Shown here piece by piece: positions 2,954 to 24,475 of a stretch of 40,513 bases of DNA (the first letter of the stretch is position 1; the number at the start of each line of letters is the position of its first letter). A program made the translations under genes and the position numbers. The DNA is from a virus, in the IMG/VR virus record IMGVR_UViG_3300004635_000002, positions 1-40,513 of that record; one strand, written 5' to 3'. A model generated the notes under the pieces. The model worked only from the letters and a program-made list of their open reading frames with translations, was not told the DNA's origin and made no database searches.

Positions 2954-3226
2954 ATGAATATAGACATGAAAAAAGACGACTACGAATACAAGCCCCAGAT
3001 CCAGGCCATCATGAAAGCGGTGCTAGAATTGCCTATAAGGAGCTCCGAAGAGTTCTCTTCAATCGTTTCTCATATGTTTTCAACGATTTGCAATCTATCT
3101 ATACATTATAACATTTCACCCGGAACATTCAGATGTATTATTGAAAGTATAAATGAAAATTACAAGGAAGCTTTCGAGGAATGCAAAAAATTAAACGAGA
3201 AAACAGATGAAACATCACACACATGA
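2954..3226 (+). CDS. Hypothetical helical protein
   Basis: The protein has 90 residues from ATG 2954; the in-frame codon at 2945 is TTG, and ATG 2966 is an alternative. It has the same size and helical, alternating hydrophobic pattern as the tandem trio at 1229-2024 (compare SSIVSHMFSTICNLSIHYN) and may be a distant member. Its end overlaps the next gene start. Function unknown. Confidence 0.55.
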   Translation: MNIDMKKDDYEYKPQIQAIMKAVLELPIRSSEEFSSIVSHMFSTICNLSIHYNISPGTFRCIIESINENYKEAFEECKKLNEKTDETSHT

Positions 3227-3476
3227 TATTACACAGAAAATAGAAACTATTCAATGGATCAGCGTTAAAGATTCGCTCCCCGAAGAAAACCAAATCGTAT
3301 TGGCATGGATGTCTATATTGAAGGAACCCACGGTTGTTATGTTTTCTAGGGATAAGAAAGGCACGTTGTGGACAGAATTAGTGATGGTAGATCTATATGA
3401 CGATAGAGAGGATAGAATCTCTCACTGGATACCAATCCCTGACGATCCTAATGCTGCGCATGATCGTGCGGAATAG
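3207..3476 (+). CDS. DUF551-type protein
   Basis: The protein has 89 residues. It shows the DUF551 pattern: QWISVKDSLPEENQIVLAW near the start and ISHWIPIPDDP near the end. These short proteins are common in phage genomes and have no known role. Three other proteins in the window share the W...P / YW or HW.P.P pattern (23295-23579, 26538-26741, 26780-27034). The 3' end overlaps the convergent lipoprotein gene by 29 bases. Confidence 0.75.
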   Translation: MKHHTHDITQKIETIQWISVKDSLPEENQIVLAWMSILKEPTVVMFSRDKKGTLWTELVMVDLYDDREDRISHWIPIPDDPNAAHDRAE

Positions 3477-18284: not shown

Positions 18285-19456
18285 TAGACACCTCCTATAC
18301 CATAAGAGTTAGAAGTATTCTGAGATTGTAGATCGCTAAAAATAGTACCTGTTCTTGTACTAGTTATTTGTCTCTGGCTTCTTTTCCAAACTAAGATCTC
18401 TTGTTCTTTAAACAAAGGCTCATAGAATTGGAACTGCTCGATATCTCCTGTGTCGCTGAGGATTTTTCTAGCAGCGCCTCGGGCTATATATTCAGACATA
18501 TAAGCAAACGGAAGAGCAGCAGCAGAATTGAGAAAAGCAGCAGGCGATAGGTATGCATCTAACTCTACATAATAAGAAACATTGGGCACAGGCATAATTA
18601 CTATCTGGTTATCCTGGAAAAGCGCAGCTCTTGGGATACCTGGCTCATAGAAATAGCAATTTGTCTGGATCTCATTCCCATCAGCTATGTTAGCAGGGAA
18701 TACCACTTCTACGACACCTGTCTGGTAGTTCACATTGCCAGCTGGGATTATGTTTCCTCCAGGCTGTGCATATTGTAGGAAGCCTACTTGTTGGTTAGAT
18801 GAGGAGAATTGTCCGCTATCTGTGACGACGTATTGTTGGTTGTTAGCATCAGAGGCCACGACGCTAACGCCAGGGTATAGGCTTGTGATTGGAGGTGCTG
18901 ATTGGACAAAAGATGGGCCATTGCCAATATCGTTCAGAACAGCCCCTACAATCGGGTCTAGCTTAGAGCCTGAGGCTATGATGCCGTTCATGTCGATATG
19001 CCCTTGGATCGCCGGGAAAAAGGGTAGAGATAGAGTGTAAGAGGCTGTGCCATCACCTGTGCCGGCAGGCTGGAGTTGTTGGACATAAGGAGTCCAGACT
19101 TTGAAGAACGTGCTCCTATCTGTATAGAAAGGCACCTGGATGCCATTGACATAGGCAGGGTCCATAAAGCCTTGATACACGGGATATGGGGCTATTGGCT
19201 GCGTTCCAGAGCCTGCCTGTTCGAGCTGGGGGACGTATGAGTTGATGCCATAGAGAGGCATATTGTATGAAGTGACACCAGGAACCGCCCAAAACCCATA
19301 TTTAGTCTTCAGGTCAAAGAGCTGAATCCTGGCATCGACATCGGTTATATAGAACCTGTTAATGTAGTCTATAATAAGATCATCTGTAATATCCGCATTA
19401 GATGGGGACTTAATCAAACGCCTTACGTACGTAATTACATCGCTAAGAAAGAACAT
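18284..19456 (-). CDS. Head-tail connector (adaptor)-like protein
   Basis: The protein has 390 residues. The helical N-terminus (DVITYVRRLIKSPSNADITD, then DLIIDYINRF) and the helical C-terminus (ARGAARKILSDTGDIEQFQF, then KEQEILVWKRSQ) flank a large beta-rich middle. This helix-beta-helix plan and the place before the nozzle-like gene suit a ring adaptor under the portal. The start overlaps the HNH gene end by 14 bases out of frame. The call is from layout and pattern, not a firm family match. Confidence 0.5.
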   Translation of the reverse strand: MFFLSDVITYVRRLIKSPSNADITDDLIIDYINRFYITDVDARIQLFDLKTKYGFWAVPGVTSYNMPLYGINSYVPQLEQAGSGTQPIAPYPVYQGFMDPAYVNGIQVPFYTDRSTFFKVWTPYVQQLQPAGTGDGTASYTLSLPFFPAIQGHIDMNGIIASGSKLDPIVGAVLNDIGNGPSFVQSAPPITSLYPGVSVVASDANNQQYVVTDSGQFSSSNQQVGFLQYAQPGGNIIPAGNVNYQTGVVEVVFPANIADGNEIQTNCYFYEPGIPRAALFQDNQIVIMPVPNVSYYVELDAYLSPAAFLNSAAALPFAYMSEYIARGAARKILSDTGDIEQFQFYEPLFKEQEILVWKRSQRQITSTRTGTIFSDLQSQNTSNSYGIGGV

Positions 19457-20060
19457 TTACAGTCCTCGGAGATCTTCTGGAGTGACATGCACGACAAAGC
19501 CATTCTACATCCAATGGTCTATTATAATCATGATGATGTCCATCCGGTTTGCATAATTTTCCACATTGAAAGCACTTTTCAGGTCTCACCACAGAGCCAT
19601 CCAGAATTGCTCTATGCAGCACAACATGAGCTCTTCTTTTTTCTTTATTTCTCCTGTACCACTCTTTCTGCCATGCATTCAATTTGTCTCTATTTTTATC
19701 AGACCACTTTTTGTGCCTTTCTCTATTTTTAGGGAATCTATCAAGATCTCTCAATCTTTTCAGAGATTCTTTTTCTGATATCTTTTTTTTGTTGGATTGC
19801 CGATATTTTCTCACTTTCTTTAAAACTGAATCTCTATTTTTGTAATAATACTCAAGAGATTGAGTTCTTAATCTATCACGATTTTTTTCATGATATTCCC
19901 TAGATGCATCGTTTCTAGATTCTTTATTTTTGGAATGATAAATTTTCTGCTGAATGCCTGTGCATTCCTTGCAATAGGAATATAACCCATCTAAATTGCA
20001 AGATTTCTTGTAAAAACAGTCATTTTCCTTATCAATCCCACAATCTCTACACTTCTTCAT
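19443..20060 (-). CDS. Free-standing HNH homing endonuclease
   Basis: The protein has 205 residues. The N-terminus is a zinc ribbon (MKKCRDCGIDKENDCFYKKS, with YCKEC downstream). The middle carries repeated basic YY.KNRD/RRNKEKR units that would grip DNA. The C-terminus is an HNH module with CFQCGKLCKPDGHHHDYNRP and LDVEWLCRACH, where the zinc Cys pairs and catalytic His are present. It is clearly more A/T-rich than both neighbours and lies between two tail genes, as expected for a selfish insertion. Confidence 0.9.
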   Translation of the reverse strand: MKKCRDCGIDKENDCFYKKSCNLDGLYSYCKECTGIQQKIYHSKNKESRNDASREYHEKNRDRLRTQSLEYYYKNRDSVLKKVRKYRQSNKKKISEKESLKRLRDLDRFPKNRERHKKWSDKNRDKLNAWQKEWYRRNKEKRRAHVVLHRAILDGSVVRPEKCFQCGKLCKPDGHHHDYNRPLDVEWLCRACHSRRSPRTVNVLS

Positions 20061-22357: not shown

Positions 22358-24231
22358 TTAGTTACCGCTGCGTGTGCAGAGGACGTTTCGGATAGATGTA
22401 TCCTGAGTAATCGCTTGCGCTTGAGCAAACTTCACTGCAAGTGTCGCGTTTTGCGCGAGCATGCCAGAATAGTATGGATCTCTGTAAATGAGATTCATGC
22501 TATAGCCGTCTTGGTTGATATGAGTAATAGCCTGTTTTCCTACGACTGTATTGTAATACACATCGCGGGAATTTGCAGACGCTCCTCTAGCAACCGGCGC
22601 TTCAGAGCTAGCTAGGATTCGGATGTTGTATACCGAACCATACTCGCTGGGAAGTGCACTACTGTTTTGTGGCATTCTGTTACTTTTGTGACCCAGTAAC
22701 TCTGTTTTCCGGGCGGGAATCCCTCTTCGGAGACTCCTCTCTATGTTTCCATAGAGTTCAGACTATCGCATCCCTTGCGGGCCTCTGGGTTTAGTCGTTC
22801 AGGCTGATCTATAGATTCTAAATATAGTCCGGATGCTTTCATGTATGAATCTGAAACGGGGAGGTAGATACCGCTTCCCAAAAGATACTCCTCATCATTA
22901 TTTTCACACTCGATAAGCAAACTTCCATAATCATCCATAATCTTGCCCCTTGTTGTCCTCATGCTGCGAGGAATTTCAAGTCAATTACCAAAGGTTTTAG
23001 AACTACACACATTTTATAGTTCCACTGGGAAATAAAACCAGACCCAGTGAGTCCATCAAAGTCGGGTTGCAGCTCAGTTGAGCTTAGCATAAAATATGCT
23101 GAGCGAATTGGGCCTGTACCGAATCTGTCCATACCTTCGATGCCTGACATGAACTTGTAGGCATTGTTGGTATCTAGCGTCGCAGCCACAAGGCTGAAAT
23201 CGCTGACTCCCAGGTTAGTGGGGTTGTCCTTGCTGTTACTTTTGTGACCTAGACTACAAACATCTAGGCGGAGGCTTTCTCTACTTACCTCTCACTATGT
23301 TTCCATAGTGTTCAGAGCACCGCATCCCTTTTCCCTACATCTTCTCTGCCATTCATCATAATTTAATGATGATTCAGATCCATACTCGGGAATAGGGTCT
23401 TCTCGCTTGCTACGTTCAGGCTGATTTGGAAGTGTTCTCCAATGAGTTATGTCTTGAATGGAATAGCCATTAATATCCTGCCATTCTCCATTACATAATT
23501 GTGCTACAGACATATACTTTCCATCTGTAACCAATACCCATTCATCTTTTTTGGGTATTTCATTTTTGATCCAATCCATAATCTTGCCCCTTGTTGTCGC
23601 CGTTCAAAAGCTGGTAATTGGAGGGAATCTAACCCACGAGTCAGCATCTTTACCATTGATTTGCTGAAGACCGATTAGAAGAGCTATTCGCTCTTCTTGG
23701 GGGGTTCCATAACTCAAACATTTCTATACTTCAATTACCATAAATTTACGCTGCGAGTTCCAAGTCCATCAGAGAAGATTTTAAAACGGCAACATTTCTA
23801 CCGTTTGCTCCCCCTGCTGCATTGATCGTTGTTGCCGCAGATACAATGTAGTCTCGGAGAATCAAATCCTCGGCCTGTCTCATGGCTACTGCCAATCTTT
23901 CGGATACCCAAGCCAGGACTCCTTCCTGATCTTGTAAGATAACCTGTTCGTTGATGATACAGCCAGTTCCAAAAAATGCCATCTGGGCATCTATGATGTC
24001 CCGTTGTGGTACTTGGGCTGGCGGGTCTATGCCTGAGTTCCCCAACTGAATTGTTGGAGGAACCAATGCCCTAGGTCTCATAAATCTGCAAGTTGTCCCG
24101 CCATTCGCTGGCATAGAGACCTTATCGCAGATAGCGATGTAGTTCATTGTGGGAGTCGGCACATACAACATAGCAGGCGCGAGCGACTGCAGGATCATAG
24201 GACCGAGGTTCCCTGTATTAGTAATCGACAT
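22358..24231 (-). CDS. Major capsid protein (N4-gp56 type), three exons split by two group I introns
   Basis: Exons are 24231-23800 (144 codons), 23228-23016 (71) and 22672-22358 (104 plus stop). Joined, they give 319 residues in one uninterrupted frame. All three exons read as one N4-gp56-family coat: TTCRFMRPRAL and RQAEDLILRDYIV in exon 1, the exon 1/2 junction GGANG-DNPTNLGVSDF, then EGMDRFGTGPIRSAYFM in exon 2, and the exon 2/3 junction QWNY-PQNSSALPSEYGSVYNIR. Both junctions fall on codon boundaries and on conserved stretches. Unspliced, exon 1 would add 17 foreign residues and stop. It forms the shell around the scaffold product (24969-25631). Confidence 0.92.
22673..23015 (-). ncRNA. 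Group I intron 2 in the major capsid gene
   Basis: 343 nt. P1: the exon end GGAACTAT (23023-23016) pairs with GTAGTTCT (23006-22999), with the U-G at the splice site. P10: TGTG (23009-23006) with CACA in exon 3. P7: GACTA (22796-22792) with TAGTC (22765-22761). P9: CTCTATG-GAAA-CATAGAG (22756-22739). The last base is G (22673). The core segments around GACAACAAGGGGCAAG and the 3' tail are shared with intron 1. Two P7 pairs differ from intron 1 in a compensatory way, which supports a functional fold. The ORF 22741-22938 lies inside. Confidence 0.92.
22741..22938 (-). CDS. Intron 2-encoded small protein
   Basis: The protein has 65 residues from the ATG that aligns with the start in intron 1; an earlier in-frame ATG at 22962 lies in the ribozyme core. 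The body (MDDYGSLLIECENNDEEYLL, then SGIYLPVSDSYMKASG) has no recognised family. It ends GCDSLNSMET, the same frame and core sequence as the intron 1 protein, and shares the QPER codons that encode P7. It may be a real small protein or a decayed one kept open by the ribozyme. Confidence 0.45.
   Translation of the reverse strand: MDDYGSLLIECENNDEEYLLGSGIYLPVSDSYMKASGLYLESIDQPERLNPEARKGCDSLNSMET
23229..23799 (-). ncRNA. Group I intron 1 in the major capsid gene
   Basis: 571 nt. P1: the exon end AAACGGT (23806-23800) pairs fully with GCCGTTT in the intron (23790-23784), leaving the usual U-G at the splice site. P10: GTTG (23793-23790) matches CAAC at the start of exon 2. P7: GTAGCA (23413-23408) with TGCTC (23319-23315), one bulge. 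P9: CACTATG-GAAA-CATAGTG (23310-23293). The last base is G. The 3' tail GGTCACAAAAGTAACAG is identical in intron 2. A roughly 170-nt extension, closed by TGGTAATTG/CAATTACCA, is present here and absent from intron 2. The DUF551-type ORF 23295-23579 is inside. Confidence 0.92.
23295..23579 (-). CDS. Intron 1-encoded DUF551-type protein
   Basis: The protein has 94 residues. MDWIKNEIPKKDEWVLVTDG and ITHWRTLPNQP match the DUF551 pattern, not a homing endonuclease. Its start sits just after the core segment AAGGGGCAAG, which may serve as the ribosome binding site. Its last codons (GCGALNTMET) run through the 3' strand of P7 and the P9 hairpin, so the protein ends are dictated by ribozyme sequence. 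Intron-borne DUF551 is unusual. Expression from the unspliced precursor or free intron is plausible but unproven. Confidence 0.6.
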   Translation of the reverse strand: MDWIKNEIPKKDEWVLVTDGKYMSVAQLCNGEWQDINGYSIQDITHWRTLPNQPERSKREDPIPEYGSESSLNYDEWQRRCREKGCGALNTMET

Positions 24232-24475
24232 GATTTACCTTATTGTCGAGTTATATGATATGCAGAACCGTGGACGAAAGCGTACTACGTCCGTTCTCTA
24301 ACACATCTGAAGAAGATGGCGAGCCCTTCTAACGCCGAATGCGAACCAACATAGAGGATTTAATGCGTCCATTAACTCGATGTTGATTGCTAAAATCCCG
24401 ATAACGCGGGGAGCGAAGCCGAAATATACTTATTCTAGCTTTTTAAGGCTAGTGTAGTAGGCTTATTCTTCGAAT
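24232..24475 (-). promoter_or_regulatory. Structured 5' leader of the major capsid gene
   Basis: About 244 nt with no ORF, between 24476-24697 and the capsid start. Read leftward it holds successive hairpins: a 9-pair stem AATCAACAT/ATGTTGGTT (24388-24380 with 24352-24344) enclosing TTAATG-gacg-CATTAA (24375-24360), then CATCT/AGATG (24318-24304), then GGACG/CGTCC (24292-24272). Upstream is CTAGC/GCTAG near 24434-24451. Such density suggests a structured RNA, perhaps a translational or stability element for the most-expressed gene. Function inferred. Confidence 0.5.

Follow-up and report, generated by a model that had tools for sequence, protein, structure and literature searches.

In-frame ssrA-like tails of group I introns in a phage capsid gene: candidate degradation tags for products of unspliced messages

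Group I introns of phages, such as those of T4 td and nrdB, Twort orf142 and the Bastillevirinae, have a self-splicing core, an internal guide sequence (IGS) and a terminal omega-G (PMC3073962, PMC11878797). They also have in common an in-frame stop near the 5′ splice site and the presence of several introns in a gene. Such a stop usually lies a short way into a group I intron and serves to exclude ribosomes (PMC3073962). The introns described here share all of these features, but they interrupt a capsid gene, whereas known phage introns lie mostly in genes for DNA metabolism, terminase or tail. In this they resemble crAss-like phages, in which group I introns cut the MCP gene into up to five pieces (Yutin 2021, PMC7886860). 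On the part of that account used here, the density of introns in a capsid gene is not new in itself, since the crAss-like phages precede it; their genomes are much larger, and the same part of the account reports no tag of the kind described below.

The split capsid gene and its two introns

The window (the whole stretch of 40,513 nucleotides that was analysed, IMG/VR record IMGVR_UViG_3300004635_000002) carries a capsid gene on its minus strand in three exons, at 23800-24231 (exon 1, 144 codons), 23016-23228 (exon 2, 71 codons) and 22358-22672 (exon 3, 104 codons and the stop). An earlier note on this DNA proposed that removal of 23799-23229 and 23015-22673 restores one reading frame. We find the same: the exons (432, 213 and 315 nt) join into 960 nt, or 319 codons and a stop, and the frame is unchanged. 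Spliced alignment with a profile also puts the two insertions at codons 144 and 215. There are many close relatives of this capsid in IMG/VR, and the set with 84-94% amino acid identity includes 88 uninterrupted genes. These are colinear with the exons and their codons are continuous through both junctions, so empty sites exist in nature and the proposed boundaries are right. For the first boundary the protein alone allows two placements 1 nt apart (GG/T...A/GG or GGT/...G/GA, slashes marking the splice sites); we keep the boundary of the note because the exon should end in U and the intron in G.

The joined 319 amino acid product has phrog_1357, “major head protein”, as its best PHROG match (E 1.5e-20). 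Its match to Pfam Phage_capsid_4 is below the cut-off, and the earlier label of an N4-gp56-type coat was not borne out. A P22-type portal and a terminase are encoded next to it. The region that separates a small zinc-ribbon-like ORF from the capsid start (24232-24475, minus strand) is apparently noncoding and rich in inverted repeats, and is a possible leader RNA. An endonuclease-like ORF is located amid the structural genes (19443-20060, minus strand; phrog_2340, E 9e-31, with HNH/endonuclease VII matches). The capsid has no match among the 50,697 phage records searched, so the phage has no cultured host. Among genome contigs it turned up only in MAGs from six lineages unrelated to each other, each time on stray contigs, and a scan for tRNA and tmRNA genes found none within the window.

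Based on their predicted structure, we assign both segments to the group I self-splicing introns, with a minimal IA-like fold. Intron 1 (23229-23799, minus strand) is 571 nt and follows codon 144; intron 2 (22673-23015, minus strand) is 343 nt and follows codon 215. The IGS of intron 1, GCCGUUU (23784-23790, minus strand), pairs with the exon end AAACGGU (23806-23800), and that of intron 2, GUAGUUC (23000-23006, minus strand), with GAACUAU (23022-23016). In both introns P1 is thus 7 bp with a U.G at the 5′ splice site, and the last base is the omega-G. Both contain P1, P3, P4, P5, P6, P7, P8 and a GAAA-capped P9, and P2 is absent; the P7 of intron 1 is a variant AGC/GCU pairing that also occurs in two relatives (L094 and L115). 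P1, P7 and P9, which the note had said can be written for both introns, are present, and its P10 is 4 bp in intron 1 and only 1 bp in intron 2 in an ungapped test.

We built a custom covariance model (R1) from an alignment (A1) of 31 short introns in the same capsid gene of relatives. Unsupervised RNAalifold on A1 recovered P3, P4, P5, P6, P8, P9 and P9.1, with compensatory changes in 29 of 33 pairs. The P7 pseudoknot was then added, with its bulged base and the invariant guanosine-site G-C; in this structure 95.9% of the cells are paired, 33 of 39 pairs have two-sided changes, and the covariation score is 0.697 (0.207 when shuffled, at most 0.19 when slid). R1 matches the two introns and nothing else in the window. 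The match to intron 2 spans the full model (22998-22673; 150 bits, E 2e-34) and that to intron 1 is limited to the 3′ half (50.7 bits, E 7e-11), as its 5′ half is disrupted by large insertions in P5 and P6. Rfam, whose model RF00028 the note had put forward as a check, gives no match to the window introns or to those of close relatives, either with the gathering cut-off or with E up to 5. A match to RF00028 is a criterion of one library model and not of the group I class, whose defining features are found here (P1 with U.G, P3-P8, GAAA-capped P9, terminal G and covariation in relatives). Because intronless alleles exist and a covarying core is present, chance is excluded for the introns.

Intron 1 contains an ORF for a DUF551-like protein of 94 amino acids (23295-23579, minus strand), the 3′ end of which overlaps the P7-P9 core; it matches PF04448 with E 3.5e-4, just below the cut-off, and phrog_924 with E 1e-6. 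A second protein, at 3207-3476 (plus strand) near the left end of the window, shares PHROG matches with it. The short ORF in intron 2 (73 amino acids; 22741-22962, minus strand) has no family match, and its end also overlaps P7-P9. The searches found no homing-endonuclease match for either ORF, one being DUF551-like and the other an orphan.

Broken ORFs could also come from decayed introns, a misassembled contig or a dead gene, and the window is one metagenomic contig, known from DNA alone. However, the exons are conserved and free of in-frame stops, the splice-site pairing and the core are intact, and the same two sites are filled in independent contigs, which makes decay or misassembly very improbable. 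These findings account for the fragmentary annotation of such capsid genes and for the failure of Rfam to see the introns.

Insertions and coreless elements in related capsid genes

Relatives, selected either for similarity to the window or for a motif, were searched by spliced alignment against the capsid profile. The 56 distinct genes with insertions have 153 in all; introns with a core fall at 29 codon positions and elements without one at 5. Two introns in one structural gene, which the note called uncommon, are not rare in this clade, where an interrupted gene has 1 to 6 insertions. The R1 matches in relatives fall within these insertions, and the site of intron 1 is occupied in 8 distinct genes, including that of the window. 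P1 is at least 6 bp with a U.G in 112 of 115 core introns (15% when exons of other sites are used). When the splice sites may shift by at most 1 nt to fit U...G, the core introns follow a U and have G as their last base; most finish with GUAACAG-N(2-6). The smallest are about 196-204 nt, and some of the relatives' introns contain ORFs that appear LAGLIDADG-like by eye.

A higher intron penalty combined with a shorter minimum length revealed mini-introns that lack a core. A low-penalty alignment of codons 87-122 had given a wrong split, and calls in L097 (at 81), L090 (at 31), L084 and L099 (16 nt each) were dropped as artefacts. The coreless insertions comprise thirty of 30-93 nt and eight of 325-987 nt at codon 103/104. 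Mini-introns occur in L121 (codons 87-122) and 33 other relatives (for example L086, L103, L125 and L156) and are absent from the window. The long insertions that were read contain an ORF, LAGLIDADG-like by eye in the longest kind. Those of about 950-990 nt at codon 103/104 (L084, L097, L099, L117, L130, L140 and L158) are coreless with an IGS near the 3′ end; their arrangement is that of a mini-intron with an ORF in its P1 loop, the ORF being LAGLIDADG-like by eye in L084 and L140.

In 30 of 30 mini-introns P1 reaches 6 bp or more with a U.G (8% using exons of other sites), and in 29 of 30 there is a P10 of 4 bp or longer that changes along with the 3′ exon (3.5% using exons of other sites). 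Every one of the 38 coreless elements has a core-bearing intron next downstream, after 24-102 nt of exon, and none was found among the capsid relatives in a gene that lacks a core intron. The segment between the IGS and the 3′ splice site of the mini-intron pairs with the end of the exon preceding the core intron, and in 27 of 38 cases this helix ends 7-8 nt short of the following 5′ splice site, beside the P1 of the core intron. The median duplex score is 21, compared with 12-13 for controls; 3.9% of the controls with a wrong exon and 1.1% of those with a shuffled tail reach it. The same design of mini-intron plus core intron is found at codons 39/50 of P22-coat genes, an unrelated capsid family. 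From these pairings, the neighboring core probably also excises the mini-intron, so that one ribozyme would serve two introns; read in this way, and as far as our searches show, the coreless partners would be the first example from nature of two introns that share a single group I core.

The size of the coreless elements (30-93 nt) also matches that of segments bypassed by ribosomes, such as the 50-nt T4 gene 60 element or the yeast mitochondrial byps. We hold bypassing to be extremely improbable for the segments studied here: matching take-off and landing codons are absent at the mini-introns, which instead have U...G ends, an IGS (30/30) and P10 complementarity (29/30), and both window segments contain full cores.

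In-frame tails read from exon into intron

Reading of exon 1 into intron 1 gives the tail RNVAVLKSSLMDLELAA followed by a stop (23746-23799, minus strand), with the LAA codons and the stop at 23757-23746. Exon 2 read into intron 2 gives KMCVVLKPLVIDLKFLAA and a stop (22959-23015, minus strand), with the LAA codons and stop at 22970-22959, in the P5 loop. The tails thus end ...SSLMDLELAA and ...VIDLKFLAA; neither they nor the coreless mini-introns of relatives appear in the earlier note. C-termini of LAA and LVA are ssrA-type degrons. The window tails have only the LAA in common with ssrA, the AND... part being absent.

Tails with AA before the stop are found in all 8 introns at the site of intron 1 (site 143 in the data set) and in 6 of 7 at site 215, the remaining one ending in LVA. 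Over all 153 insertions there are 94 such tails in the exon frame and 1 in 306 readings of the other two frames (Fisher p 2e-55, not to be taken literally given the kinship among the sequences). Core introns from codon 60 onward without a coreless partner have the ending in 59 of 63 cases, while those at or before codon 35, where the truncated product is tiny, have it in 0 of 14 (p 4e-12, which overstates independence because the introns are related). It is present in 34 of 38 coreless elements and in 1 of the 38 core introns just downstream of them. Six mini-introns without a stop of their own are read out of frame into the next exon and end in RLAA, RQAA or RLVA. Some late introns are untagged (L101 at 119 and several P22-coat sites). 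In divergent capsid genes (L178, L201, L221, L241, L365 and L400) the tails end in VAFS, YGVS, VVFC or VAIS, possibly another type of C-terminal degron.

These could be ordinary group I introns in which the stop merely halts ribosomes ahead of the core and LAA is a by-product of P5 or P6 RNA, for example of GCAGC loops. Group I introns commonly have an in-frame stop close to the 5′ splice site (PMC3073962), and tails of the P6 type (...QAKAA) overlap the conserved P6-J6/7 sequence GCAGCGUGA. Against this, the same fold lacks LAA in every one of 14 early introns and in all but one of the 38 partners of coreless elements. The stop of the tag is variously in P5, in P6, in coreless elements and in out-of-frame exon. 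The tag is written as 58 different 12-mers, and each of the four Ala codons and three stop codons is used. This variety of 12-mers, codons and RNA positions fits selection on the peptide and not on one RNA motif, and full ANDxxFALVA peptides occur at other capsid genes. We therefore regard a by-product as unlikely and favor a tag selected as peptide.

The other loci were fetched by two DNA motifs of the intron core, whatever the gene. Among introns with a clear upstream frame, 38 of 91 end in AA before the stop, compared with 1 of 182 readings in other frames. The tails in P22-coat genes (phrog_283) include ANDSSFALVA, ANDEKFALVA, ANDQSFALVA and ANDKMFAMVA, a phrog_1328 capsid family gene has ASNDAVFALAA, and AEQFALAA was also found in capsid loci of this set. 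In a spliced alignment against 72 uninterrupted P22-type coats, the P22-coat tails are encoded by the intron and absent from homologous exons. In sequence, these tails in unrelated capsid genes are near-perfect mimics of ssrA tags. In the GenBank phage record MW202674.1 (L406:2625-2927) a P22 coat gene is annotated as two CDS; the coat is truncated at an unrecognised group I intron and the annotated protein ends ...DAYFLLAA.

Ribonucleotide reductase genes contribute only three introns of this RNA family, and each of them has an immediate stop and no tag. Terminase large subunit introns have tails ending in CAYVA (L324), CATAA (L385) and CANAA (L396), and these AA and VA ends weaken the idea that the tag is specific to capsids. 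The tag may concern virion-assembly genes rather than the capsid alone. Our literature search found no earlier report of intron-encoded degradation tags.

Proposed role and comparison with known systems

We consider it likely that these are self-splicing introns with an LAA tag that sends truncated capsid, made from unspliced mRNA, to proteolysis. The transcribed intron would fold into its P3-P9 core with the IGS paired to the 5′ exon, GTP would attack after the exon U, and the exons would be joined at the omega-G. Entry of ribosomes into the introns is proposed because transcription and translation are coupled: early ribosomes would run from the exon into the unspliced intron. As read from the DNA, the exon frame stays open through P1, P3 and P4 and closes in P5 straight after Leu-Ala-Ala. 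With the stop so early in the intron, any message translated ahead of splicing would give a truncated product, and a truncated fragment of an abundant, self-assembling protein should be harmful. The ssrA-like C-terminus may route this fragment to host ClpXP-type proteases, and the benefit would be to keep assembly-incompetent fragments from poisoning shell assembly. The stop codon may also shield the catalytic core from ribosomes.

More broadly, the in-frame stop has probably been turned into a quality-control degron, and in relatives the mini-introns would carry the degron for an untagged neighbor whose core removes them. Tagging of the by-product is a possible answer to how introns are tolerated in the most highly translated gene of the phage, where translation outruns splicing. 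It would make ribosome entry into introns testable in vivo and provide a new natural source of degrons.

The tails distinguish these introns from T4 td and nrdB, which have the same kind of stop but no LAA tag (...DVFLG and ...FYVSFA). They resemble tmRNA/ssrA tags in their C-terminal LAA or LVA and, in P22-coat introns, in AND..(F/Y)AL(A/V)A. Unlike tmRNA tags, which are added in trans, they are encoded in frame by the message's own intron, and they would act on unspliced mRNA where tmRNA acts on broken mRNA. Removal of introns in trans has been achieved with engineered ribozymes (PMC4094466). Such spliceozymes (PMC4094466, PMC4509937), as far as the parts of these reports used here describe them, are like the paired introns of relatives in that a group I core removes a coreless intron. 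Compared with the same descriptions, the mini-introns differ in being natural, in having their own IGS and P10, and in a helix that anchors them to the end of the exon next to the core intron.
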